Shown here: in pieces, positions 36,691-52,532 of the stretch
How the letters are laid out: each line of letters starts with the position of its first letter
How positions within the stretch are numbered: the stretch's first letter is position 1
Assembly: GCF_000196115.1 (NCBI RefSeq)
Contig: NC_005027.1
Location: 1,922,001 to 1,986,000 of the forward strand
DNA from: Rhodopirellula baltica SH 1
Lineage (GTDB): Bacteria; Planctomycetota; Planctomycetia; Pirellulales; Pirellulaceae
Length of the DNA stretch: 64,000 bases
Direction of reading: 5' to 3'
Notes under the pieces: model-generated
Database searches by the model: none
Told to the model about the DNA's origin: nothing
The model's input: the letters and a program-made list of their open reading frames with translations, nothing else
Position numbers and translations under genes: made by a program

Positions 36691-39252
36691 TTAAAAGTCA
36701 CTGCGTGCGAAGTAAATGCAACTCAGCAACATCATGGCGATGATGAACACACCGCAACTGATGATAGGCGTGGCGATTCCGTATCGAACCACTTCGCCGG
36801 TTTCCATGTCACCACCGCCGATAATGAATGCTTTCTTGCCTGAAACCATCCCGGCGGTGGTATCACCAAGTGCCAAGACTTGAGGCGTTAACAATTCCAG
36901 CAAACCAATTCCGTATCGGTCAATTCGCCGCCAAAACGATCGTTCCGGTTCAACGCTGCGAATCAACGATATGTCTGCCGATTGCGATTGATGACTGACC
37001 TCAAATTCGCTGATTCGATCGACATCGTGTGCGACGATCAACTGAGCTGTCGTAGCATCTGGCGCGACTTCAACCATCGCGGTCTCGATGTCATCCACTG
37101 GCAGCGTCGCGGTGATCTGCAAACGTTGCTCCGACGCGTCATCGTGGTCGAGTACCCGTAGCAAATGGCCGCTGCCTTCCGTCGTAACAACGAAAAACAG
37201 ATCGTCCGCAACGGCGTGGATCGAAAGCGGTGCGATGTCTTCCGGCCAATCGCCAACATAGAACTCGTTCAGTTCGTTTCCTTCGAACACTCGAGCGGAC
37301 TCGTCGCCGGTGCTGGCAATGACAAATCGACTCGACGCTGCCAGAACAGGAGGGAGCGGTGTATCCGAACGGGCTAAGTCAGCGACTTGGGTTCGCTGCC
37401 ACACGTTTTCGACGGGATCTCCATCGGGTTCCAACTGTTGCAATTGACTTCCATTCAAAATCAGCAAACGTGTTGTCTCGCTAGAAATATCCTCCGTCGC
37501 ATCTTCGGCTGCCAGCGGAACTGCTAATCGTATCGGCGGACTGAGAGCCACGTTCCGCGGCAAGATCGAAACGAACTCTTCGGTTGCCCCACCCTGCATC
37601 GTCACAAGCGTACTCAACCAAGCGCCGATCGAATTGGAACCTTGTCCGCGCGGCGAACGCCCATCTGAACTTTCGTCGCCGTCTTCAGCGGTATCGTTAT
37701 CCTCATCTTCAACCTTCTTACCGATTGACGACAAGATATCTCGGTTGTGAGTGATCAACAGATCCGCTGTGTTGACCGCCAATGTGTGACCGGATCCAGA
37801 ATCTTCAGTCACACCAATGGGAATCAGCCGTTCCGTCGCCGTCGGCAAACGCAAACCCGGCTGAGGTTTCCAATCGTTGTCGCGAGCCAACACGATCAAG
37901 TCGAGTGATCCAGATCCAAATGGATTGAACTTTCCATTGCGGATTCTGGCCGTCAAAACATGATCGTCATCGATCGCGACGGGCCGTAGAACGCGATCAT
38001 TCGACATCGCTTTGCTCTCGATCACCGGCACCCATTGCAATTGATCTTCATCCATCCGATTCAGCCCACCGCCGTTGGTGAGTGAAAGCAGATCCTCGCC
38101 AGCTCGTACTAAACCAGCAATTCGATCCGGCTGGACAATTCGAGTGTCAAAAACACCGGAGATGATGCTGAACACCAAACAGATTGCTGCCAACGCACCA
38201 GCGGCGGCAATCGAAATGATCGGCGATCGCCATTTCAAGCCAGCCGGTACGGAGACACTGAAGAACACCGCAAAGAGAAAGACCGCGACCGGGATGCACC
38301 ACAAAATTCGCGGGTTCCAAATTTCCAAACGCAATCCCGCGATCAAATACAGCCCAATGACCAGTTGTGCCACGCATAGAAACACGAATGCACACCCACC
38401 CACAAACTTTGCGATCAGCAAAGCCGGACGGGAAACGGGTTTGCTTAGCAGTAGATGCAACGAACCCGTCTGCAACATGTCGGGGATAATGGAAGCGGTA
38501 ACCAAAATGCCCAGGAAAACCAGCACAAAGCCGAGCAACCAGTGAACCAACATCGGGATCACGAACTGATTGAATAGCGATTCAAATTGCGTTCGATCGA
38601 TCTCGAACCCGGTGGGGAAATCCAACGTGCCGTAAGTCAACAACACCGACCTCGCACTTCTCGCCTCGAAGACTCCCGGCAAAGCAGCCTCGATTCGCAA
38701 TCGCCCACGCCGCCGAATCAAGGAATCCGATAGTTCTTCGGTGGGCATCTCATCGAGCTCACGAAGTTCGCGAAGACGAACCGTTTCTTTCCATGCTTCC
38801 GCGTCGTACCAATGTCGCGATACGGATGCTTCCTTCGAGTCGTCTTTTGATTCGGCTTCTTCGTCAACCGTTCCCTTCGCGAGCTTCAATTCTTGATCGA
38901 TCAAATCATTCAAAGCGTCGGTCAGCATCGGCAACGGAATGCGGACCTCGTCGCCTTCTCCGACACGCTTTAGCTTTCGCGACAATTCTTCGGGCATTGC
39001 TTCGGCAATTCGGCCCAGCGGCGCGTCTTCTTGTTTGGGATCGACCATGCCTTGGGCGAGCATCGCCTTCATTCGTGTCCCGTTGTAGACATCGAAGAAA
39101 CGAAACGTCGTCGTGTAATCTTCGCGAACACCGATCGGGGCGAGCATCGCTAGCAAGATCCAAATGGCCAGCATCGCGGCCCAAAGCACACGTGAAGCCA
39201 TCGCAGCGTGAAACGAATCCCAAACGACGGCGAAATAGGGTCGCCAATTCAA
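36691..39252 (-). CDS. ABC-2 type permease with a large soluble insert
   Basis: An 853-residue membrane protein. Hydrophobic helices are near 18-42, 222-250, 270-305, 312-335 and 342-366, with a final one near 826-849. Between the fifth and last is about 450 residues of soluble, strand-rich sequence that includes LLILNGSQLQQLEPDGDP and SRFVIASTGDESARVFEGNE, suggesting a WD/propeller-like fold. TTG at 39252 is proposed as start because GGGAGAG lies just upstream. A GTG at 39354 is open but has no ribosome site and would overlap the ATPase by 29 bases. It is the third gene of an operon with the ATPase and a small membrane-anchored protein. Confidence 0.75.
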   Translation of the reverse strand: MNWRPYFAVVWDSFHAAMASRVLWAAMLAIWILLAMLAPIGVREDYTTTFRFFDVYNGTRMKAMLAQGMVDPKQEDAPLGRIAEAMPEELSRKLKRVGEGDEVRIPLPMLTDALNDLIDQELKLAKGTVDEEAESKDDSKEASVSRHWYDAEAWKETVRLRELRELDEMPTEELSDSLIRRRGRLRIEAALPGVFEARSARSVLLTYGTLDFPTGFEIDRTQFESLFNQFVIPMLVHWLLGFVLVFLGILVTASIIPDMLQTGSLHLLLSKPVSRPALLIAKFVGGCAFVFLCVAQLVIGLYLIAGLRLEIWNPRILWCIPVAVFLFAVFFSVSVPAGLKWRSPIISIAAAGALAAICLVFSIISGVFDTRIVQPDRIAGLVRAGEDLLSLTNGGGLNRMDEDQLQWVPVIESKAMSNDRVLRPVAIDDDHVLTARIRNGKFNPFGSGSLDLIVLARDNDWKPQPGLRLPTATERLIPIGVTEDSGSGHTLAVNTADLLITHNRDILSSIGKKVEDEDNDTAEDGDESSDGRSPRGQGSNSIGAWLSTLVTMQGGATEEFVSILPRNVALSPPIRLAVPLAAEDATEDISSETTRLLILNGSQLQQLEPDGDPVENVWQRTQVADLARSDTPLPPVLAASSRFVIASTGDESARVFEGNELNEFYVGDWPEDIAPLSIHAVADDLFFVVTTEGSGHLLRVLDHDDASEQRLQITATLPVDDIETAMVEVAPDATTAQLIVAHDVDRISEFEVSHQSQSADISLIRSVEPERSFWRRIDRYGIGLLELLTPQVLALGDTTAGMVSGKKAFIIGGGDMETGEVVRYGIATPIISCGVFIIAMMLLSCIYFARSDF

Positions 39253-39325
39253 AGCTTCTCTCCCGGGATCATTTTCGAAACAGATGGCGTCAGCATTGCC
39301 GCGACGCTCAAAGAGGCCATCGTCA

Positions 39326-40402
39326 TCACAACGTCGCGTTGGGGACGGGAGCACCGGCTTGCTGCACCAATCGCATGAAGGTGTCTTCTAACGTGTGTCG
39401 GTGCGGCTGCAACGTCACGATGGATCCACCCAGACCTCGCACCAAATCGACGCTTGCATCGACGTCCGCTTGATCGTCGCAATTCAATTGCACTCGCCAA
39501 AGATCTTTGGTTCCCAGTGAACGCACCAATTGCCACGCTGCGTCGGTGGACATCATCGGCTGAAGCTGTTCCTGGAGCGTGTCCAGGTTGGACCGTTCCA
39601 GATCAATCTCCATGTGGATCGTCAACTCTGATGTCGACGCCTTCAACCCGGGCCCACTGAGGTTGTTGATTGGCCCGGATGCGAGCACACGGCCTTTTGC
39701 CATGATCGCCAAATGAGTGCACACCAATTCGACTTCGTGCAGGATGTGACTGTTAAGAAAGATTGTTTTTCCTGAATCACGAAGTCGTTCGATCACTCGA
39801 CGGACTTCCGATCGTCCGACCGGGTCCAATCCATCGGTGGGTTCGTCCAAAACCAACAAATCAGGGTCGTGCATCAAAGCCTGCGCCAAACCCAAACGCT
39901 GCAACATTCCCTTGCTGAAACGTCGCACGGGCTCACGATCACGACCATCCAGACCAACCAACTTCAGCAGTTCATCGCTGCGGTTGCCGATCGTCGTGCC
40001 GTCCAAACCGCTCAACCGTCCATAGTATTTGAGTGCCGAACGTGCGGTGTGGTGTCGATCAACTCGCAACGATTCAGGCAGGTAACCAACTCGTCGACGA
40101 GCGGCAGCCGATCCGGCGGGCAATCCAAACAGGCTGGCCGAACCTCCGGAAGAGCGAATGACACCGAGCAGAATTTTGATCAGGGTCGTTTTGCCAGCAC
40201 CATTGGGGCCCAACAATCCAAATACCTGACCCGCATCGGCTTGGAGAGTCACACCCGAAAGAGCGTGAACGTGAGAAGATCGCAACCAACTGCCGCGATA
40301 GACTTTTTGCAGACCGTTGACGGAAATGATCGTGCCCGACGTTTCCAGCACTTCGTCGGAGGCTGGAAGATCCTCGGTCGGTTCTGCGATGGTGGAACTC
40401 AC
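39326..40402 (-). CDS. ABC transporter ATP-binding protein
   Basis: A 358-residue ABC ATPase. It has Walker A GPNGAGKTT at about residue 68, signature RFSKGMLQRLG and Walker B LLVLDEPTDGLDP, of the NodI/CcmA/NatA type that pairs with ABC-2 permeases. A C-terminal extension of about 100 residues follows the ABC fold. Its stop lies about 75 bases before the permease start, and its start overlaps the stop of the small membrane protein by 4 bases, so the three genes are one operon. It energises export of an unknown substrate. Confidence 0.93.
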   Translation of the reverse strand: MSSTIAEPTEDLPASDEVLETSGTIISVNGLQKVYRGSWLRSSHVHALSGVTLQADAGQVFGLLGPNGAGKTTLIKILLGVIRSSGGSASLFGLPAGSAAARRRVGYLPESLRVDRHHTARSALKYYGRLSGLDGTTIGNRSDELLKLVGLDGRDREPVRRFSKGMLQRLGLAQALMHDPDLLVLDEPTDGLDPVGRSEVRRVIERLRDSGKTIFLNSHILHEVELVCTHLAIMAKGRVLASGPINNLSGPGLKASTSELTIHMEIDLERSNLDTLQEQLQPMMSTDAAWQLVRSLGTKDLWRVQLNCDDQADVDASVDLVRGLGGSIVTLQPHRHTLEDTFMRLVQQAGAPVPNATL

Positions 40403-40848: not shown

Positions 40849-41331
40849 CCTAACTCCGCGTGGCAATGATGAAGACACTTAGTCTCCGATGGTCCATTAT
40901 TGCCGGTTGGGCAACCGCCGTCATGGTCGGAGTCAAATTTTTGGGGAAGTTTTGACTCATTTTTGGCTTGCCCGTTTTCGTTGCCACCCATTGGTGTGAC
41001 AGCATGTCGCGATCAAATCAGGCAACGGATCCGCCGCCGGCCATCGGGCACTCGCCGGTCTCGACGGGCAAATTCTCGTGACGAACAACAGAAATCCTCT
41101 GACGCTATGGTGAACGCCGCATTGTTGCTAACGTTGACGTCATCACACCCCTGATTTGTGCTCTCATTTAGGTGCCCCTGGTAGGAGCCAGCACCTTTCA
41201 GAGACCAGTTGCGTGCGTCCCTGCCGACAGCCACGACCGGACCGGGGTGACGACTCGAAAAAGCCCGTTTGGGCAATTTGAATTGCAAGAACCAAGTGTC
41301 TGGTTCGATTCCATTTCAACCTGCAAAGGAC
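40849..41331. other. Divergent intergenic region, about 0.48 kb
   Basis: It separates the minus-strand ABC operon from the plus-strand histidine kinase and should hold both promoters. The open frames crossing it have no family resemblance. I see no repeat, tRNA or strong hairpin. Confidence 0.45.
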
Positions 41332-42405
41332 ATGGTCATCGTCACGCCCATCTCGCACCGCCCGCTGACTTTGCGAACGCCCGTTACGCTGGGCGTCGTT
41401 CTGATCGTTTTGGTCGTCCTGCTGACCGCAGTTTGGATCAGCGGAACGGTTTGGGGCGCTGTTCGAAACGATTCCACGTCGGGGATGTTTTGGGTGATGC
41501 TGGGCGCCGGTGCGCCACTGCTCGTCGCGGTTTTGGCTGGCGTGATCGCTTATCTGACGCTATCGGTCAAGGCATTCAACCTCAATCGTCGCCAATCAAA
41601 CTTTATCGATTCAGTCACGCACGAACTGAAAAGCCCGATCGCGTCATTGAAGTTGTATTTGCAAACGATGACCCGGCACGATGTCAGTGTGGAACAACAG
41701 AAAGAGTTCCACCTCATCATGTTGGAAGACGTCGAGCGACTGGACAGTCTGATCAATCACCTGTTGGATGCAGCTCGGGTGGAACGAGGCGGGGAGGCTT
41801 ACGAAGCCAGCGATCTGTCGTTGGAAACGGTTCTGTCCAAATGCGCCCAAGGCGCCTGCGTGCGATACAAAATGCCACCGGAAACCGTCAGCATTCACTG
41901 CCCCGCGATCTACGTTCACGCCCCGGTCGTGCAAATTGAAATCTTATTTCGCAATTTGATCGACAACGCCATCAAGTACGGTGGCTCACCTCCCAAAGTT
42001 GAGCTGACCGCGGTTTGTTCTCCTACGGGCGATGTGACTGTGTCGGTCCTCGACAATGGGACCGGCATCCCCGCCAACTTGCGAAGGAAAGTTTTCGGTC
42101 GCTTTGTGCGTTTGGGAAGTGAACTGGAACGAAGCAAGCAGGGCACCGGGCTGGGACTGTATTTGGTTCGCAACATCACGCATGCTCTGGGCGGTCGCAT
42201 CAATATCCAAGACGGACACTGGACGGTGGCAACCGAGACGGGTCCGACCGATTCCACAAAGTCCGCCGGCGCGGACCAACCGCCAAGCAATCCGGAATCC
42301 ATCGCCAACCGTAAGCCAACTGGCACACGAGTGGACGTCACACTTCCCAACGGAAAGATCATCCAGCCGGAAACCGGGGCCGATGAGCCACCATCGAAAG
42401 AATGA
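41332..42405 (+). CDS. Membrane sensor histidine kinase
   Basis: A 357-residue two-helix sensor kinase. Helices lie at about 18-38 and 52-75 with only a short loop between, so any signal is likely sensed in the membrane or by a partner. HisKA carries SVTHELKSPIASLKLYLQTM at about residues 97-116 with the phospho-His. HATPase follows with NLIDNAIKYG, LDNGTGIPANLRRKVFGRF and GTGLGLYLVRNI. A C-terminal tail of about 55 residues is low-complexity. ATG 41332 was chosen over an open upstream start. No response regulator is adjacent; the FtsK-like gene follows 216 bases later on the same strand. Confidence 0.93.
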   Translation: MVIVTPISHRPLTLRTPVTLGVVLIVLVVLLTAVWISGTVWGAVRNDSTSGMFWVMLGAGAPLLVAVLAGVIAYLTLSVKAFNLNRRQSNFIDSVTHELKSPIASLKLYLQTMTRHDVSVEQQKEFHLIMLEDVERLDSLINHLLDAARVERGGEAYEASDLSLETVLSKCAQGACVRYKMPPETVSIHCPAIYVHAPVVQIEILFRNLIDNAIKYGGSPPKVELTAVCSPTGDVTVSVLDNGTGIPANLRRKVFGRFVRLGSELERSKQGTGLGLYLVRNITHALGGRINIQDGHWTVATETGPTDSTKSAGADQPPSNPESIANRKPTGTRVDVTLPNGKIIQPETGADEPPSKE

Positions 42406-42621: not shown

Positions 42622-45600
42622 ATGAAAGACTCTGCTGTTTCGCCTGCGCTGCTGTTTGCTCCGGAACGCCAACGCCGTCTGCTTCATGGATTGATACAAC
42701 GCGTTGCGGCGTCGCGAGAGGAACACTACCGATTGGTTCGCCAACAAGGTGACCAACACGCGGACATCGAACAGAAACTTGCCGACCAACTCGCTGCGGT
42801 CAAACAGAACTGCAAAGCCGACCGACTCAGCACTCTCAAGCAATGGGATGCCGCACAAGAAGAGACCATTGCCGCTTACGAATCCGCGACATTGCATACT
42901 CGCGACGAATTGCGACGTTGTTCAGCGAGATTCCGACGCCAATTGGCCGAAGAAGAAGCGGTGATCAACGGCAAAGTCGAGAAGCGACTGATCGCGGTCA
43001 AAAATCAGTACGAGGCTCGCAAGGATCAACCCAAGAAGGTCGCGACGAAGGAGCATCACCAACTCGACACCGCTCTCGCAGAATCCAACGAGGACATCGA
43101 GTGGGCACGAGCTTTGACGATTCGCAGGTTGAACCGTCTGCTGGAGACTCAAACACCAAGCGACCTCTATGCGGAATTCGGCGAATCGAAACCGACCAGT
43201 GTCGAAGATGCATTGGATCTCATACGGCGACAGAACCGACGTTTGAAATCGACCGTTGCGGAGATGCAAACTGGTTTTGCGGCTCACGTTGTCGATGCGG
43301 TCTACTACCTGCCTACTCTCGTCGCGGTACTTTTGGTGCTGTTCGCTGGTGCATCCATCTTGATGAAAGCGGAACCGCTGCTTCACTACTTGATTGGTTC
43401 GGTCATCATCTCAGGATTGATCGGATTCACCTGCTATCTGATTTTGATGTGGCCGTTGCGACGGATGACGCGTTCCTTGCATCCGACCACAGAGCGTATC
43501 CGACTGGCATCGCAGGATGCTGTCGTCCAAGCCAAACGAATTTCAACCGCAGCGGCGAAGAAAGCCAGCCAAGAGCTCATCCAGCGCCGAGACGCTCACG
43601 TGAAAGAAGCTCACCAGTGGCAAGAAAGCCAACTGAAGTCTCTGCGTGAAGACCTCGCGGCAAAACAGGTTGCTGAAGAAACTCGGCTCAACGAACAATT
43701 GCAACGGATTGAGCAACAGTTTCAATCGGGATTCAATGAACTGCAGCAAACCATGCGTGAACGAGCGGAGCAAACCGCTGACGCAATCGCTCAAAAGCTC
43801 AGTCAATCCGACGCGGCGGCGGGCCAAACTCTGCAAGCTGTCGTTCAACAACACCAGCATACGCTTGAATCGTTGTCCCAACGTTTGAATTCCGGCATGC
43901 ACCGGGGCATGACACGGATTCTAGCTGCGAATGATCTAGTCGAATATCGACATCCTCATTGGGACGAATTGCTATCCAATCCACCGCCTCAACATCCCGG
44001 CATTGATTTCCTACCACTTGGATCTCTCCGGTTGGGCAATCGATTGAAGAAGCAATTTGATTCGGCGTTGGGATACAACGCCAAGCATCGCGCGGCGAAC
44101 AATGGTCACGCCCACGACGAAGCCGACATCCTCAATCGATTGCAGGTCCCTGACACGATGCCAATCGCGATGCATCGGCGTCAGCATTCCGGCGTGATCA
44201 TCGAGGCACCAACGGCCCACATCGAAGATGGCATCAAAATCGCTCATCAGATTCTTTGGCGTTTGCTTAGCGCGGCGCCACCGGGCAAAGCTCGTGTGAC
44301 ATTGATCGACCCAGCCGGACGCGGCCAGAATTTTTCCAGCTTTCTCGCGTTGGCTGACCACGACCCGAGCCTGATCCATCACCGCGTTTGGACTCAGGGC
44401 GACCAAATCACCGCACGAATCGCCGACATCGGACACCAAGCTGAGAATCTGCTGCAGTCTTGCCTACGTGACCAATATGAACGCCTGGAAGACTACAACC
44501 AAGTCGCCGGTTCGCTTGCGCAGCCCTATGAAGCCATCGCTGCGGTCGGCTTTCCCGACGGATTGTCTCGCGAAGCCTACTCGCATTTGGGCTCGTTGAT
44601 TCGCAGCGGCATCCGATGTGGCGTCTTTGTCATCCTGGTCGTTGATGAAAAACACGAGTGGCCTGCCGACATGCCAATGTTTGACCATCCGAATTTGCTA
44701 CGGTTAAAATACGGCGAAGCCGGTGTGGACTCGGGCGAAGAAGCTGCTCGAAAAGATCCGTCGGTGGCATTCGACGGTCTGGATCGATCGACCCTGACCG
44801 GTGAAAAGCCGGAAGCCAACGAAGACGGCATCATTCCCATCGCGTCCAAACGTCGAGTTCGCTTGCTTGACGAAGGCATCACGGCAGGCCATTGGCGTTT
44901 GCTCAACGCAGGGTTGGATGAATTTGAATTCTGGCCAGCACCGCCACCGATGCCGCAAGACCGCTCGGCGCTGATCAATCGAATCGGTCGGCTCGCGCAG
45001 GAAGCTTCTCAGGTCATTGTGCCGCTGACATCGTTACTTCCCGGCGAACAAATTCCCGTTGCGGCCAATACGTCCAGCTCCGCAGATGGTTTGGAAGTGA
45101 TCATCGGCAGTTCTGGTGCAGGACGCAATCGCTCCTTGGACTTAGGCGAAGGGGTTCGCCAACATGTTTTGATTGCAGGAAAGACCGGTTCGGGCAAGAG
45201 CACGTTGCTGCACAGCATCGTGACATCAGGTGCCGCAATGTACGAACCTGATGAACTGCAGTTCTATCTTCTGGACTTTAAAAAGGGCGTGGAATTCAAG
45301 ATCTACGCTGACGCAAAATTGCCTCACGCTCGAGTGATCGGGATCGAGAGCGAACGCGAATTTGGACGTAGCGTGCTGCAACGTTTGGATGCCGAGATGA
45401 CCACGCGAGGCGAACTGTTTCGTGCCGCCGGTGTGCAAGAAGTCGGATCGTACCGCCGGGCGTGCCCAAACAAATTGATGCCACGGCTGATGCTGGTCGT
45501 TGATGAATTCCAAGAGTTGTTCACCCGAGACGATTCATTGGCGGCCGATTGCACCGCGTTGCTCGATCGACTCGTTCGCCAAGGCCGCTCGTTTGGCATC

Positions 45601-46860
45601 CACGTTGTCCTCAGCAGTCAATCGCTGGCGGGTGCGAACAGCCTTCCACGAGCAACGCTGGGACAAATGGCCGTTCGCATCGCCATGCAGTGCAGTGAAG
45701 CGGATGCAGCGTTGATCTTGTCCGACGACAACACCGCCGCTCGCCTGATTTCGCGTCCTGGTGAAGCAATTTACAACGACGAAAGTGGATTGATCGAAGG
45801 GAATCAACCCTTCCAAGTCGCTTACCTGGAAAGCGCCGAACAAGTCCGGCTGCTCAATCAGATTGCTGAGCGTGATGAATCCTGGACGCAAGAACTGGGA
45901 GCGGCCGTTGTCTTCGAAGGTAACCGCCCCGGACGCTTTACGGCGGCCATGGTTCGTGAAGTCATCGCGGAATCGGGACGCTCCGATACACTGGTTGGCT
46001 TGCTCGGCGAAGCGGTCGAACTTGGCCCGCCCTGCGCACTGCGGTTGCAAGCCAACACGGGTCGCAACGCGGTCCTGGTTGGTTCGGCTCGAAATCGCCC
46101 CAGCATTCTGGGCAGCATCATCGCATCGGCAAAGGCGCATCGTCCCGAGATGGCACTGGTCCATTTCGATGGTTCGCGCGCCGAAGAAGGCGATTCAACG
46201 GCACACTGGATTCAGCAGAACCCGCAACTTGGTGGACAAATCATTCGGACCAGAGACGCCGAAGCAGCGATGATCCAACTCTCGCGGTTCGTGGACTCGC
46301 GACTTGGCAAAGCCCCCGCTGACTCCCCCGAGGATCGCGAAGCGGCATCCACAGCCGCCGCATTCAGTTTGGATTCCGGTGGCACGTTGGTATCAGCAAA
46401 AAGCGATCAAACGGAAGAACCACCAATCGAGGAGTTGCCTGACAACGACGAAACTCCAGTGCTGGTTGTTCTCGATGGGCTCGACCGCTTCCGCGATTTG
46501 CGACAGCCTGAATCAATGAACTTCTCGCTGGATGCGTCCAGCCAGGTTTCCGGTTGCGACGCGTTTCAATCGATCTTGCGAGAGGGTCCCGCGGTCAACG
46601 TATTCATCATCGTGAGCCTTCCATCGGCTGAAACACTCAATCGATGGTTGCCGCGTCAAAGTCATCACGATCTGGAATTGCGTTTGGTGGGTGCCCTCAA
46701 CGCTGGCGATTCATCTATGTTGATTGATTCGCCCGCCGCCGCAGATCTTTCGGCGGCAACGATGATTTTGTACGACGATTCAGATGGTCGATTGACCAAA
46801 TTCCGGTTGTGTGACCCGCCAACGTCGGGAGAATTGATGGCGTTGTTAACAACCAACTGA
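42622..46860 (+). CDS. FtsK/SpoIIIE-family membrane ATPase with three ATPase-like segments
   Basis: A 1412-residue protein. Residues 1-220 are coiled-coil rich. Two helices (about 228-246 and 256-276) anchor it, and a second coiled coil runs to about 430. A degenerate nucleotide-binding-like region (about 500-740) has TLIDPAGRGQNFSSF but no Walker A. A canonical FtsK domain follows with Walker A GKTGSGKST (853-861) and Walker B LMLVVDE (956-962). A third degenerate region (about 1130-1400) has LVGSARNRPSIL and VLVVLDGLDR. Three tandem FtsK-like modules behind two helices recall EccC/EssC of type VII secretion, but the extra coiled coils fit no named member. It could move DNA or protein across the membrane. 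A small Cys-rich protein follows at 30 bases. Confidence 0.8.
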   Translation: MKDSAVSPALLFAPERQRRLLHGLIQRVAASREEHYRLVRQQGDQHADIEQKLADQLAAVKQNCKADRLSTLKQWDAAQEETIAAYESATLHTRDELRRCSARFRRQLAEEEAVINGKVEKRLIAVKNQYEARKDQPKKVATKEHHQLDTALAESNEDIEWARALTIRRLNRLLETQTPSDLYAEFGESKPTSVEDALDLIRRQNRRLKSTVAEMQTGFAAHVVDAVYYLPTLVAVLLVLFAGASILMKAEPLLHYLIGSVIISGLIGFTCYLILMWPLRRMTRSLHPTTERIRLASQDAVVQAKRISTAAAKKASQELIQRRDAHVKEAHQWQESQLKSLREDLAAKQVAEETRLNEQLQRIEQQFQSGFNELQQTMRERAEQTADAIAQKLSQSDAAAGQTLQAVVQQHQHTLESLSQRLNSGMHRGMTRILAANDLVEYRHPHWDELLSNPPPQHPGIDFLPLGSLRLGNRLKKQFDSALGYNAKHRAANNGHAHDEADILNRLQVPDTMPIAMHRRQHSGVIIEAPTAHIEDGIKIAHQILWRLLSAAPPGKARVTLIDPAGRGQNFSSFLALADHDPSLIHHRVWTQGDQITARIADIGHQAENLLQSCLRDQYERLEDYNQVAGSLAQPYEAIAAVGFPDGLSREAYSHLGSLIRSGIRCGVFVILVVDEKHEWPADMPMFDHPNLLRLKYGEAGVDSGEEAARKDPSVAFDGLDRSTLTGEKPEANEDGIIPIASKRRVRLLDEGITAGHWRLLNAGLDEFEFWPAPPPMPQDRSALINRIGRLAQEASQVIVPLTSLLPGEQIPVAANTSSSADGLEVIIGSSGAGRNRSLDLGEGVRQHVLIAGKTGSGKSTLLHSIVTSGAAMYEPDELQFYLLDFKKGVEFKIYADAKLPHARVIGIESEREFGRSVLQRLDAEMTTRGELFRAAGVQEVGSYRRACPNKLMPRLMLVVDEFQELFTRDDSLAADCTALLDRLVRQGRSFGIHVVLSSQSLAGANSLPRATLGQMAVRIAMQCSEADAALILSDDNTAARLISRPGEAIYNDESGLIEGNQPFQVAYLESAEQVRLLNQIAERDESWTQELGAAVVFEGNRPGRFTAAMVREVIAESGRSDTLVGLLGEAVELGPPCALRLQANTGRNAVLVGSARNRPSILGSIIASAKAHRPEMALVHFDGSRAEEGDSTAHWIQQNPQLGGQIIRTRDAEAAMIQLSRFVDSRLGKAPADSPEDREAASTAAAFSLDSGGTLVSAKSDQTEEPPIEELPDNDETPVLVVLDGLDRFRDLRQPESMNFSLDASSQVSGCDAFQSILREGPAVNVFIIVSLPSAETLNRWLPRQSHHDLELRLVGALNAGDSSMLIDSPAAADLSAATMILYDDSDGRLTKFRLCDPPTSGELMALLTTN

Positions 46861-46890
46861 TTCCAAATTCTCTCAGTCCAGGACATTCGT

Positions 46891-47253
46891 TTGGCCAAGT
46901 GTGATGAAGGGTATCGCTGCGAAGTCTGTGGCGAAGACGTGATGTCGATCGTGGATAGCGATCTGTATCTTCGCTATGTCATTGGGCACTTGGATCCCGA
47001 GAAGCTCCATGTGTCGCCCGAACGCCACATCCGCTGCAATCCAATTCTCGCTCAGTGCATTCGCGACGATCGCGTTCCACCCGTTGCAGTGGAAGGACCA
47101 TTTGCACTCTCCGAACTGGATCCAGATCACTCCAACGAGATGATCGATCTGGTAACACGAGGTTATCAACGGCTTTGGGAAATCAACTCGGAAGACGGCG
47201 ACCGAGACGTCACCGAATACCCACTCCCTGAAGTTCGAGCTCGCTACCAGTAG
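46891..47253 (+). CDS. Small Cys-rich protein next to the FtsK-like ATPase
   Basis: A 120-residue protein of unrecognised family. It carries YRCEVCGEDV at about residue 8 and HIRCNPILAQCI at about residue 46, enough Cys and His for one zinc site. The rest is acidic and soluble with no signal peptide. Start TTG 46891 is used, with AGGA about 8 bases before it. It begins 30 bases after the ATPase stop and is probably cotranscribed. A role as an adaptor or regulator of the ATPase is inferred from proximity only. Confidence 0.6.
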   Translation: MAKCDEGYRCEVCGEDVMSIVDSDLYLRYVIGHLDPEKLHVSPERHIRCNPILAQCIRDDRVPPVAVEGPFALSELDPDHSNEMIDLVTRGYQRLWEINSEDGDRDVTEYPLPEVRARYQ

Positions 47254-47436: not shown

Positions 47437-50400
47437 ATGTTTTCGTTTGGAATCACAACGAGAGCGTGTGATCACGCTTGGTCGCGTAGAAACTCGCACC
47501 GGTGCTGTATCTACGTTGCCAGTTTCGCTGCCCTGATCTCCGCACCGCTCTTTTCCGCCTTAGCGTTGGCTCAACAGACGAGCCAAAACGAAGTGGTGAC
47601 AGCGTTGGATTTCACCAAGCTGGAATCAAACACGACCTCTCCATTGGAAATCCACGTTCATGGTTCCGTCAAATGGAATGTCCCCGGACCGGTACCGCCT
47701 GAATACGCCGAAGCCAAACCGGGCAACCTGTCAGCTCAATTTCACGGCAAGGGCGAACGCTTGGTCATCGATGATCCGGGCAGCGATTCACAGTGGGATT
47801 TTGACAATGGAGATGAGCTATCGATCCAAGCCATCGTCAAGATTGACGAAATCGGCGAGGGTCAAAACGTCTATGTCATCGGCAAGGGTCGCACACACGA
47901 GAAGAAGTACGCATCCAACAATCAAAACTGGGCGTTGCGTTTGCGGCAACTCAATGGCAGTAGCCGCATCAGTCTGCTTTTCGCAACGCCGGAGGTTTCC
48001 GGCAATACACCTTGGCACCGATGGACGTCGAGTGAAGGGGTCGAATCAACCGCGACCTGGAACCACATCGCTGTGACTTACCGTTTTGGCGAACCCAAAA
48101 GCGTTCGCGCTTGGTTAAACGGAAAGCCGGTCGCCGGAAAATGGGACATGGGCGGACCGACAAAGCAGGCTCCAATCATCGACGACGCGCCGGTTTGGGT
48201 TGGCTCGTCGATGGGAGGTCAACATTCATCGAGCTTTCGAGGATGGATCGATCAGCTGATTGTCTCTCGCAAACTGCTTCACGACGACGACTTGAAGGGT
48301 TGCTGGAATCCTCCACCTCCACCACGTCCCAAACCTCCGGAAATGTTGCTTTCCCCCGGCAAGGTCACTTGGTGGTGGAAGGATGACATTCCGACGCATA
48401 CGAAGTGGCCGGTGGTCAATTCTGATGACGGTGATTCGCTGACCGTCGAGGCTCCCATGCTGCTTTCGCGTTTGCCGCAGAAGTACGACTCGCACGGGAT
48501 CCGCGATTCCTATTCGAAAGCGGTCTACCTTCGATTGGGAACCGAACTGTCGATTCCCGCGGGCGACCATCGGTTTCTTGTTCGCGCGCGCGGCTTGTCT
48601 CGGCTATGGATGAACGACGAGGAAATCGCAACCATCGGTCCGCAGAACGGACGTACCGACGGACACAACCCAGTCGAACCATTGCCGGAAAGACCGGGCC
48701 CCGGATTGAGACGTCTGGCTTATGGAGTGCAAGAAACAATTGTCGAACACTCTGTCAAAGAGGAAGGCGACAAACGATTCATCCTAGAAACAATCGTAGG
48801 TGGCACTCGATATCGAGCGGAACCCGATGAAACGATAGTCGCCGTGCAGCTAAGTGGAACTGGGCCGTTCTATTTGCTGTCATCCGCCTTTGAAGATGTA
48901 AACTCACGGCTGCCGATTACCGACGCAATGGTCGAAACGAAATTGGCCCAAGTGGAAACGACACTCAATGCACATGACGTGCATACTCGGCGGCATCACG
49001 CCGCAGCACACAATGACTATTGGGACGAACGTCATGCGAGAGCGAATGAGTGGATTGACTCGCTTGAATCCGTGGAAGTCCCGACGAATTCAACGAAGGC
49101 TGAACAGGCACGACACTCGATTGACAGATTTCTGACCGCGAAGATCGAGACGTATCGTCGCGATGCGAGATCGAGCGAAGCGGAACCTGAAACAAATAAA
49201 TTGTCTTTGAAGGCACAGTCCATTCTGCGGGAACGATGCTTTCGATGTCATGACGAGGACAGCGAAGGCGGTTTGCAACTGAGTTCCGCCGAGGCGATCC
49301 GCATGGGCGGTGATTCAGGCGAAACGCTATTGGTTTCCGGCGACCCCCACGCGGGCGAATTGATGCGAAGGATTCGCTCAACCGACGAATTGGAACGGAT
49401 GCCTCCTTCCGAATCCATTCCGGATGAAGAAATCGCAATCCTCAGCCGTTGGATCTCCGAAGGTGCGAGTTGGGCCGACGAAGCAAACACCATCGAAATT
49501 GCGGACGCGGAATTGGTCGACGACGAATCGTTCATTCGCCGCGTTTACCTGGACTCGATCGGTGTGCCGCCAACCGAAACGCAGTTTCGCGTGTTCGCCG
49601 CTGACACCGCCAAAGACAAACGACAACGGTTGATCGAAGACTTGATGGGACAAGATGCAGTCGCCGATCATTGGGTCAGCTTCTGGCAAGACTTGCTGGC
49701 CGAGAATCCCAACTTGTTGAAACCCTCGCTCAATAACACCGGCCCGTTCCGTTTCTTCTTGCACGATTCGTTAATAGACAACAAGCCAATTGATCGCATG
49801 GCGACCGAACTGTTGATGCTGCACGGCAGTCGCTATGAAGGCGGCAGTGCAGGTTTCGGAATGGCCGCCGACAATGACGCCCCCGAAGCAACACGCTGTA
49901 TCGTCGCCGCGTCAGCTTTCATGGGTATGAATTTACAATGTGCGCGATGCCACGATTCACCTTACCATTCGACGACCCAAGAAGACCTGTATTCACTGGC
50001 CGCGATGCTGGCTCGGAAGGAACTGAAAGTCCCCGCCAGCAGCAGCGTTCCAGCCGCATTCTTCGAGGATCATCCTGGGCGAGCTTCGCTGATTCAGGTC
50101 ACTTTGCCGCCCGGCGAAGCTGTGGAACCAAATTGGCCCTTCGGTGATCTGGTCGACACGTCTCGATTGGATCGTTGGATGCGTGAACCTTCCGATGCTC
50201 GAGAAAGGTTGGCCGTCGCGGTGACGACTCCGGAGAACCCTCGTTTCGCAAAGGTGATCGTCAATCGCGTTTGGCAGCGTCTGATTGGCACCGGCTTTGT
50301 CGAACCACTTGGCGACTGGGAAAAGGCATCACCCAGCCATCCAGAATTGCTGGAGTGGTTGTCGCGAGATTTCATTGCGAGCGGCTATGACTTTCGCAAG

Positions 50401-51225
50401 TTGGTTCGCACGGTCATGCAATCCGAAGTTTACCAACGCGAAGCCATTGGCCAAAACGATCCCGTCAATCCAGCCAATCGCTTTTTTGCGGCCCCCGATC
50501 GTCGTCGCATGTCATCCGAACAAATCATCGATTCGATGGTGATGTCCTCCGGCCGTCCCTTGGATGTTGAACCTTTGACGTTCGATCCCGAAGCCCGTCG
50601 TCCGCCGCAGACCATGATCCATTTGGATGCTCCCGAGCGAGCGTGGGAGTTCACCACGTTGTCCAACGAACGTGATCGTCCCAGTCTCGCGTTCCCTCGT
50701 GCGGGTGTGATCGTGGACGTGATGAAAACATTCGGCTGGACCGGTTCTCGACAATCGGCGATCGATCGTCGAGACGAAGATCCGAACGTGTTGCAACCCG
50801 GCGCGGTTGGAAATTCCGTGTTTGCATCCTGGACGGTAGCCGCATCCGAAGACAGCGAGCTAGCTGACTTGGCCGTGCAATCTGAAACGCCTGATTCGCT
50901 GACTGAATCATTATTCGTTCGTTTCCTGTCACGCCGACCCACCGATGATGAACGCGAACTTTTCGCGAATGTGTTGTCCGATGGATTTGATGACCGGATC
51001 GTTCCGAAGGCTCATCGCCATCGCGCCGAACCGCTTCCGGAGCTTGAGCACGTTTCTTGGTCGAACCATTTGGCCGACCGTGCCAACAGCATCAAACTCG
51101 AACTGGAACAACGAGCCGTTCGTGGCGATGCCCCCGATTCACGTTTGCGTTCAACATGGCGTCAAAGCTACGAAGACGTCATTTGGTCATTGCTCAATTC
51201 CCCCGAATTCATCTGGATCCCCTGA
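47437..51225 (+). CDS. Secreted PSCyt1/DUF1549/DUF1553 protein with LamG domain
   Basis: A 1262-residue planctomycete protein. After an N-terminal signal segment ([21 protein letters not shown]) come a LamG/concanavalin-like domain (about 80-290), a cytochrome-c-like PSCyt1 region with one CxxCH haem motif ([10 protein letters not shown], about residue 600), DUF1549 (about 690-900, with a second CARCHDSP motif) and DUF1553 (about 940-1250, with [15 protein letters not shown] and [11 protein letters not shown]). The two CxxCH motifs are visible. The family is common in planctomycetes, and its role in extracellular redox chemistry or polysaccharide use is not established. The stop overlaps the next start (TGATG), so it is coupled to the DUF1501 gene. 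Confidence 0.93.
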
Positions 51226-52532
51226 TGTTGCAATCTCGACGAAGTTGGCTGCAAAACGTTGCAGCAGGGAGCACCGCCATTGCCGCGTCATCCGCTGGCG
51301 TGAGTGGATTGTTGCGAGCGAATGTAGCAAACGACGCCACGCTATTCGGAAAAGCCGAACACGTCATCTCGATTTGGCTTGGTGGCGGTATGGGGCAGAT
51401 CGACACGTTTGATCCTAAACGAATGGGTGACCAAAAGGCTCGAAAACCGGGTTCGCTCTATAAATCGATCGACACGGCCGTGGCTGGAGTTTCCGTTTGT
51501 GAACACTTGCCGCGACTCGCCGAACGCATGGATCGTGTCACGGCCGTTCGAACGGTTCACCATGACGTGATTGATGAACACGCGGCGGCGACCAACCGAA
51601 TGCACACCGGTCGTGTCGTGACAGGAACCGTTACCTACCCGTCGCTGGGCAGCGTCGTTGCTCACGAACTCGGTTCAGCAGATTCCAGCGTTCCGCCTTA
51701 CGTCTTGATCGGCTATCCAAACGTGACCCGCGGCCCAGGATTCCTGGGTGCATCAAGTGGTTACCTGTATCTGACGGATACCAGCAAAGGCCCGTCCGGA
51801 TTGTCACTACCACACGGAATTGATGCGGAACGTCAATCACGACGCGAGCAACTGCTGAGCGCAACAAGAGCATCAGCACGGCGTCGCTTCGACAACGATT
51901 CTGCAGTCGCGAACTACGATTCGGTCATCGAACAATCGCTGCGTTTGTCCGGTCCGGAGTTCGGAGAAGTTTTCGAACTGGAAAACGAGAGCGGCCAACT
52001 TCGCAATCAATACGGCAGCGAATTCGGACAACGATGTTTGCTGGCTCGACGCTTGGTCCAGCGAGGCGTTCGGTTTGTGGAAGTCTCCCATAACCTGAAC
52101 TTCATCAATGGCACGGGTTGGGATGTCCACAACGATGGCATCAACAAACAACACGAACTGATCCGAGACTTGGACACAGCCGTGTCAACGTTGATCGATG
52201 ACTTGGAAAAGCACTCAATGCTGGACAAAACGTTGATCATGGTGTCGTCTGAATTTGGACGACCACCAGGCTTCGACGCCGGCGGCGGACGAGGTCACCA
52301 AGGCAAGGCGTTCACCTGTGTCCTGGCGGGCGGCGGACTGAACCACAGCGGAGCCTATGGACTGACCGACGAGCTCTCACAAAACATCGTCGAATCGCCG
52401 GTGAGCGTTCCAGATCTATTCGCGACCGTGCATGCGTCGCTCGGAATCGACCCGCAAAAATTGCTCTACGACGGCGACCGTCCGATCCCAATCACAGACA
52501 ACGGAAAACCAATTCGGTCATTGCTCGTTTGA
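51225..52532 (+). CDS. Tat-exported DUF1501 protein
   Basis: A 435-residue protein with a twin-arginine signal, [13 protein letters not shown], at residues 4-16. The mature part has the sulfatase-like fold of DUF1501: [19 protein letters not shown] at the N-terminus and [30 protein letters not shown] towards the C-terminus. DUF1501 proteins nearly always follow DUF1549/1553 proteins in planctomycetes. ATG 51225 shares one base with the previous stop, so 51057 as a start is rejected. The pair is probably exported to the periplasm together. Substrate is unknown. Confidence 0.93.

Follow-up and report, generated by a model that had tools for sequence, protein, structure and literature searches.

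Locus and motor protein

We analysed a window of 64,000 nucleotides from Rhodopirellula baltica SH 1 (positions 1,922,001 to 1,986,000 of contig NC_005027.1) and, within it, a long open reading frame (ORF) predicted to encode a membrane-anchored ATPase with three FtsK-like modules, whose relation to the motors of type VII secretion is considered here. The host genome is a single contig of 7,145,576 bases, in which the ATPase gene lies at 1,964,622. In window coordinates, the gene and its parts are as follows.

42622..46860, + strand: EccC/EssC-like three-module FtsK ATPase, membrane-anchored, 1412 amino acids (aa), ATG start (ORF list; Pfam, NCBIfam and PDB profile matches; AlphaFold2 model; Foldseek; VIA-align)
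42709..43281, + strand: first predicted coiled-coil region, residues about 30-220 (composition only)
43309..43446, + strand: membrane hairpin, hydrophobic segments 230-248 and 257-275 (hydrophobicity)
43489..43941, + strand: second predicted coiled-coil region, residues about 290-440 (composition only)
44155..44712, + strand: putative degenerate FtsK-like module D0, residues about 512-697, without a P-loop motif (AlphaFold2 model; Foldseek and VIA alignment to EccC 4nh0; profile match to D2)
44893..45918, + strand: middle module D1, residues about 758-1099, the sole module with intact motifs (Pfam, 92.7 bits; model)
45178..45204, + strand: Walker A, GKTGSGKST, residues 853-861 (sequence and orthologue alignment)
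45487..45507, + strand: Walker B, LMLVVDE, residues 956-962 (sequence and orthologue alignment)
45985..46851, + strand: degenerate FtsK-like module D2, residues about 1122-1410 (hhalign to D1; model)

The first-pass annotation of the window had described a protein of 1412 residues with two helices, coiled coils before and after them, one FtsK/SpoIIIE ATPase with both Walker motifs, and two degenerate nucleotide-binding-like regions around it. Each of these elements was recovered, the Walker motifs at the residues it had assigned and the degenerate regions by profile for D2 and mainly by model for D0. Residues 30-220 and 290-440 contain 42% D, E, K, R or Q and less than 4% P plus G, as expected for coiled coil, which is predicted here from composition rather than by a dedicated coil predictor. 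Pfam gives a single FtsK_SpoIIIE match (residues 822-1002, 92.7 bits against a cut-off of 24). An orthologous ORF is present in 41 loci including the window, all picked for containing a match, and reaches at least 1295 aa in 39 of them; because these loci hold a long orthologous ORF whose best-conserved stretch is the FtsK region, the gene is not a chance ORF. In Walker A, G853 and T855-S860 are found in all 41 orthologues and T861 in 39, while D961 and E962 of Walker B are present in every one. Exactly two hydrophobic segments were detected under a strict threshold in 34 of the 41 orthologues, and the hydrophobic hairpin (46-residue window) in 105 of the 113 ATPases with enough N-terminus in a set of 121.

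Three modules and their relation to EccC and EssC

Profile-profile comparison with hhalign relates D2 to D1 with 96.9% probability (E 1.8e-10, 222 columns), and the coil and reversed controls do not exceed 0.41%. The profile match of D0 is weak (59.7% to D2, 4.3% to D1); in the AlphaFold2 model its order of strands and helices is that of D1, and its assignment as a probable FtsK-like module comes mainly from this predicted structure. The top Foldseek match is the EccC cytoplasmic domain 4nh0 (E 1.3e-28, 971 columns, template modelling scores 0.39/0.43), which spans the modelled part, and 4n1a, the EccC ATPases 2 and 3 with bound signal peptide, is also among the structural matches. For the middle module, the highest Z in VIA-align (31.3) goes to FtsK motor domains; D0 alone is barely tested by this alignment. 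The order D0-D1-D2 fits equally well what we take to be the EccC modules NBD1-2-3 and the series of EccC DUF plus NBD1-2.

The best PDB profile matches of the ATPase are likewise EccC/EssC. The top three NCBIfam models, all far below their cut-offs, are EccCa (124.4 against 509.15 bits), EccCb (99.6 against 346.55) and EssC (84.9 against 778.4); NCBIfam FtsK reaches 19.6 bits (cut-off 1566) and TraB 18.8 bits. Neither an FtsK gamma domain nor an FHA domain appears among the Pfam hits of the window proteins. A separate FtsK gene of the host genome, at 6,367,392 (213.1 bits), is much closer to ordinary FtsK.

The proposal in the first-pass annotation of an EccC/EssC-like three-module motor in which a module other than the first is active is borne out by the 4nh0 match and by Walker motifs found only in D1. 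EccC (T7SSa) and EssC (T7SSb) resemble the planctomycete motor in the membrane hairpin on the N-terminal side, in the chain of FtsK modules with degenerate members behind it (D0 being known here mainly from the model) and in a WXG100 partner. On the other hand, the planctomycete motor has long coils and no FHA among the Pfam hits, and its Walker motifs are confined to the middle module, whereas EssC carries them in D1 and D2, with a canonical first module, according to the excerpted text of PMC11090510. The protein is not classed as EccC or EssC because both the curated EccC/EssC models and the feature of an active first module failed.

PADLOC models of SspH, mad8 and HerA also match the ATPase. 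We took these matches to reflect a shared motor fold only, the SspH and mad8 matches covering the FtsK motor only. Matches of the LeoBC, LmuB and ZorA models were rejected as well; they lie in the N-terminal 425 residues, which are the coil part.

Small partner genes and the four-gene cassette

All ORFs were compared in up to 20 kb around the 40 orthologues and the window copy. Three small genes recur upstream of the ATPase gene on the same strand, coding for a 90-aa protein (20 of 41 loci), a protein of about 185 aa (19 of 41) and one of about 75 aa (21 of 41). In the full cassette they immediately precede the ATPase gene, and the order is WXG100, long helical hairpin, short W-x-D protein and ATPase. 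No fifth cassette gene was found, since the other coding-strand families at a fixed position, the ATPase gene itself excluded, occur in at most 6 of the 41 loci. ORF families inside the ATPase gene or on its other strand were discarded as frame shadows, and one family of 10 loci has scattered positions on both strands.

The 90-aa family is assigned to WXG100, as all 20 members match PF06013 at E values up to 1, with 38.8 bits for the first row and 43.0 bits for the copy of the host genome against a cut-off of 27.3. Its turn reads W-R-D in 16 of the 20 rows and W-Q-D in the other 4, and its best PDB match is H. pylori HP0062 (3fx7, 2gts; E 6.2e-12). The C-terminus of the family holds a conserved K-A-x5-Y-L, which we guess might be a tail signal. 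In the 75-aa family two W and a D are invariant; 5 of its 21 members match WXG100 weakly, and the host copy scores 20.5 bits, below the cut-off. Members of the long-hairpin family measure about 160-200 aa. The host copy has no Pfam match beyond noise and is modelled as a single long hairpin (helices 8-76 and 86-158) with a predicted local distance difference test score (pLDDT) of 93.0. These comparisons of sequence show the predicted partners of the motor to be a WXG100 hairpin protein, a long two-helix hairpin and a short W-x-D protein.

In all ten loci fetched from the 13 genomes of the host's genus, and also in the relative G311, the WXG100 gene is immediately preceded by a TPR gene (264 aa frame). 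In the host genome the TPR frame (L142:9081-9875) and the WXG100 gene (L142:9872-10141) overlap by 4 bases, as the two genes do in three other genomes. Neither the intact cassettes nor ten additional WXG100 loci showed a TPR gene.

Co-occurrence and dispersal

In the host genome the long hairpin is encoded at 3,635,664, the short W-x-D protein at 4,142,882 and the WXG100 protein at 6,490,371, the latter by the single WXG100 gene over the Pfam cut-off, 4.5 Mb from the ATPase gene. Among 40 relatives, 29 have the full ATPase (best matches of at least 357 bits); these 29 also have the WXG100 gene, which is missing from all 11 that lack the ATPase (Fisher p = 4e-10, uncorrected for shared ancestry). 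Both genes are kept in all 13 genus genomes. Strong hits of the long hairpin were found in 28 of the 29 genomes with ATPase, the exception being G305 (490 contigs), and in none of the other 11. Six of these matches cross one stop, and in the three of the six genomes that were fetched (G294, G300 and G303) an uninterrupted ORF of at least 158 residues matches the host copy. The short protein gave strong hits in 28 of the 29 as well, with only E 9e-4 in G315, and in none of the other 11; the best match of either protein in these 11 has an E value of 0.02.

In a sample of the phylum (n = 294), 38 genomes have both ATPase and WXG100, one the ATPase only (G219), two WXG100 only (G271, G279) and 253 neither, for thresholds of E up to 1e-50 for the ATPase (39 genomes) and up to 1e-6 for WXG100 (40 genomes). 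Some ATPase match was present in 184 of the 294, those weaker than 1e-50 being counted as ordinary FtsK. At most two ATPase candidates and 18 WXG100 candidates were scored per genome, so single misses are possible in these counts. The two genes are thus concordant in 40 of 40 relatives and in 291 of 294 phylum genomes, and each of the three discordant assemblies has at least 550 contigs.

Gene order varies across the relatives. None of the 13 genus genomes has any two of the found four genes in one place. G311 is intermediate, with WXG100 and the long hairpin in one place and the short protein and ATPase in another, while in G315 only the pair of WXG100 and long hairpin is still together. G152 keeps the three small genes together without the ATPase there, and in five genomes the WXG100 gene stands alone. 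In one further locus (L267, from G251) the order is long hairpin, short protein and WXG100, away from the ATPase.

A scan of public genomes returned at least 464 stretches encoding a relative at E up to 1e-3, perhaps including ordinary FtsK, of which the best 80 were kept. As far as titles tell, these belong to Planctomycetota and Verrucomicrobiota. All three small genes lie near the ATPase gene in 37 of them, verrucomicrobia included; 16 have the short protein only, 4 the short protein and the long hairpin, and 23 none, some of these on short contigs. Taking all 121 loci together, the cassette is intact in 53, reduced to the short protein in 14, absent despite at least 1.5 kb of upstream sequence in 31, and cut or otherwise arranged in 23. 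In a quick ATPase tree, midpoint-rooted without an outgroup, none of the 28 rows formed by the Rhodopirellula-Rubripirellula group with its relatives has an intact cassette, and the verrucomicrobial rows nest in the other, mostly intact side. The cassette seems to have broken up repeatedly with its parts kept, the direction of the break-up resting on parsimony. We infer that in the Rhodopirellula lineage the four parts no longer need an operon, yet are kept as a set.

Plasmid relatives and known systems

Of 35 records returned by a search of plasmids, all with matches over less than 80% of the ATPase, three were inspected. The ATPases of the Caballeronia, Rhodococcus and Deinococcus plasmids score 432.6, 574.8 and 337.4 bits with the three-module profile, and a WXG100-like gene lies near each of them (E 1.4e-27, 1e-12 and 3.4e-11, respectively, in a set of 20 proteins). 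The plasmid cassettes therefore appear, from sequence comparison, to share WXG100 and motor with the planctomycete set. On the Caballeronia plasmid both genes lie beside VWA, PP2C, kinase and CARF-annotated genes in a TerY-P-like setting, and the Rhodococcus relative adjoins TerD genes. No clear membrane segment was found in the first 400 residues of the Caballeronia and Deinococcus ATPases, and one borderline segment in that of Rhodococcus. Caballeronia proteins of 76 and 436 aa were compared with the short and long small-gene families and dismissed (0.7% and 10.3% probability). On the Deinococcus plasmid, the gene before the anchor-less ATPase (L272:4517-4945) codes for a helical-looking protein with a hydrophobic end, perhaps a separate anchor.

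Related arrangements have been reported. Footnote 6 to Table 1 of PMC3482391, as excerpted, lists, for planctomycetes, verrucomicrobia and others, solo WXG domains accompanied by a YueA-like ATPase of a distinct kind, in which only the middle one of three HerA/FtsK domains is active, as apparently mobile versions of the type VII secretion system. That group resembles ours in the three modules, the middle-only activity and the WXG partner; it differs in that the footnote gives neither genes nor a cassette and calls the versions "apparently mobile", while the host set is chromosomal and dispersed. According to excerpts of PMC11090510, Type III-A CoCoNuTs pair two WXG100 proteins with an EssC-like ATPase that has an N-terminal coiled coil and three modules, the middle one active; these forms are described there without transmembrane domains and in a TerY-P/McrBC setting, whereas the planctomycete ATPase has its hairpin between coils. 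H. pylori HP0062 carries W-R-D at its bend, and its gene is clustered with an FtsK/SpoIIIE gene (excerpts of PMC3397514). HP0062/HP0066 are alike in the match to the WXG100 family, W-R-D and a clustered FtsK/SpoIIIE gene, and differ in phylum and in that a long-hairpin partner is not named in the excerpts of PMC3397514, PMC4978471 and PMC3843698, the likeness of HP0066 being by description only.

Interpretation and alternative explanations

Based on the modules, partners and co-occurrence, we propose that the ATPase drives a type VII-like exporter of diderm bacteria that is minimal in its parts and dispersed in the genome, a reading in which export is drawn by analogy and to which we give a probability of roughly 60%. 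By sequence and model, a membrane hairpin anchors three FtsK-type modules in series; the outer two keep the fold but not the motifs for ATP hydrolysis, which are present in the middle one only. By analogy with EccC/EssC, the motor may oligomerise at the inner membrane, the middle module may burn ATP, the degenerate C-terminal module may dock the C-terminal tail of WXG100, and the hairpin proteins may be pushed across the inner membrane or act as adaptors for other cargo. The lack of an adjacent WXG100 gene, remarked on in the first-pass annotation, is true of the window; as an argument against type VII it is misleading, with a WXG100 gene 4.5 Mb away and the cassette present in many relatives.

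Several points weigh against this proposal. The export of WXG100 is inferred by analogy with EccC/EssC, in which, unlike here, the active module is not the middle one. No YukC/EssB was found in the host genome, the best YukD match scores 19.1 bits (cut-off 27) and that of EccB 10 bits, below its cut-off, in a search that covered YukD, EccB and YukC/EssB in the host genome only and not EccE, EsaA or EssA. The YukD match falls inside a protein that reads as a DegP-like serine protease and was rejected as a YukD/EccD-like gene. The p-values for co-occurrence are too small, as they ignore shared ancestry, and the cassette is intact in only 53 of 121 loci. The membrane hairpin is missing in 8 of the 113 ATPases, namely in six relatives of the Prosthecobacter clade and in L233 and L244. 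The TPR gene lies directly upstream of WXG100 in the genus, and extra parts may therefore exist. The relatives on plasmids and in CoCoNuTs belong to conflict systems, so that the role may be one of defence.

This last possibility, a chromosomal, membrane-tethered version of the defence-associated module of WXG100 and EssC-like ATPase known from TerY-P triads and CoCoNuTs, serving anti-phage or stress conflict and not export of its own, is unlikely in our view. It agrees with the VWA, PP2C, kinase and CARF genes around the Caballeronia WXG100 and ATPase, with TerD beside the Rhodococcus relative, with the middle-active ATPase and paired WXG100 proteins of Type III-A CoCoNuTs, and with the SspH and mad8 matches to the FtsK module. 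However, those matches are limited to the motor, the planctomycete form is membrane-anchored whereas the CoCoNuT forms in the excerpts of PMC11090510 are not, and no other fixed-position coding-strand family occurs in more than 6 of the 41 loci, although the neighbours there were compared as families and not by a named search for Ter, CARF or nuclease domains. All of this is compatible with export as the biochemical act.

It is improbable that the ATPase is a DNA translocase like FtsK/SpoIIIE or TraB: the first rank of FtsK motor domains in VIA-align speaks for it, but concerns the middle module, while the separate FtsK gene scores far higher, motifs occur in one module only, the whole-model hit is EccC, EccCa outscores FtsK and TraB in NCBIfam, pairing with WXG100 is strict and no gamma domain was seen among the Pfam hits. 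We consider it quite improbable that the four genes form an intracellular assembly from which nothing is exported, such as a membrane-attached filament of WXG100 and hairpin proteins remodelled by the ATPase. The missing YukD, EccB and YukC/EssB and the long predicted coils that fill the N-terminus would suit such an assembly, but the search covered just three known partners in a single genome, and WXG100 proteins are secreted in the studied cases mentioned in the excerpts of PMC11090510. Finally, the 120-residue Cys-rich protein encoded next to the ATPase had been suggested as its adaptor. By coordinates it adjoins the ATPase gene in 6 of the 26 genomes with both, namely G000, to which the window belongs, and the close relatives G295, G297, G299, G302 and G304, but 10 of the 11 genomes that lack the ATPase have it too, and 3 of the 29 with the ATPase do not (Fisher p = 1). 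The linkage is not conserved, and the protein, refuted as a general partner, is highly improbable as an adaptor.

More tentatively, and at odds somewhat short of even, we suggest that Planctomycetota and Verrucomicrobiota have a four-part type VII system of their own, kept by descent and working without EccB/D/E or EssA/B, which Rhodopirellula runs from four chromosomal places. Its parts would be the membrane-anchored, middle-active motor, WXG100, a hairpin of double length and the short W-x-D protein. For the authors of a 2024 survey of its variants, the type VII pathway belongs to Actinomycetota and Bacillota (excerpts of PMC11217815), and a 2014 study places WXG100 proteins almost only in these phyla (excerpts of PMC3935865). 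A solo WXG protein with a middle-active three-module ATPase is already known in outline from the excerpted parts of PMC3482391 and PMC11090510; beyond the footnote of the former, no paper among the matches listed deals with this set in planctomycetes. Within the literature searched, what seems new is that the motor is membrane-anchored, that the four genes form a fixed set in planctomycetes and verrucomicrobia, and that this set broke up repeatedly with its parts kept. Planctomycete WXG100 genes may reportedly be named by Sutcliffe in 2011.

If our proposal is true, a conserved set of WXG100 and motor in diderm planctomycetes would indicate how little the pathway needs, and would make its evolution testable. 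Gene context makes the motor resemble an orphan FtsK because the genus lost the operon but kept the parts, and a tight functional set can in this way escape neighbourhood methods. The hairpin-less verrucomicrobial ATPases of the Prosthecobacter clade (L242, L250, L251, L253, L255 and L257), five of which keep the whole cassette, offer a natural test of the purpose of the anchor.

Neighbouring genes

The gene directly downstream of the ATPase gene is assigned to no part of the system on the linkage and co-occurrence counts given above.

46891..47253, + strand: 120-aa CxxC protein, TTG start, not part of the system

The protein has its CxxC in the N-terminal part and no Pfam match over the cut-off, and it is widely kept (36 of 40 relatives). 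Upstream of the ATPase gene, a frame of 378 aa (41269-42405) reads, from its sequence, like a membrane histidine kinase, and it is kept there in L092 and L093. An 887-aa ABC-2 permease with a DrrA/GldA-like ATPase is encoded on the minus strand at 36691-40402. Further downstream, 47437-52532 code for a protein with LamG and PSCyt1/PSCyt2/PSD1, followed by a DUF1501 protein, a pair that is common in planctomycetes.

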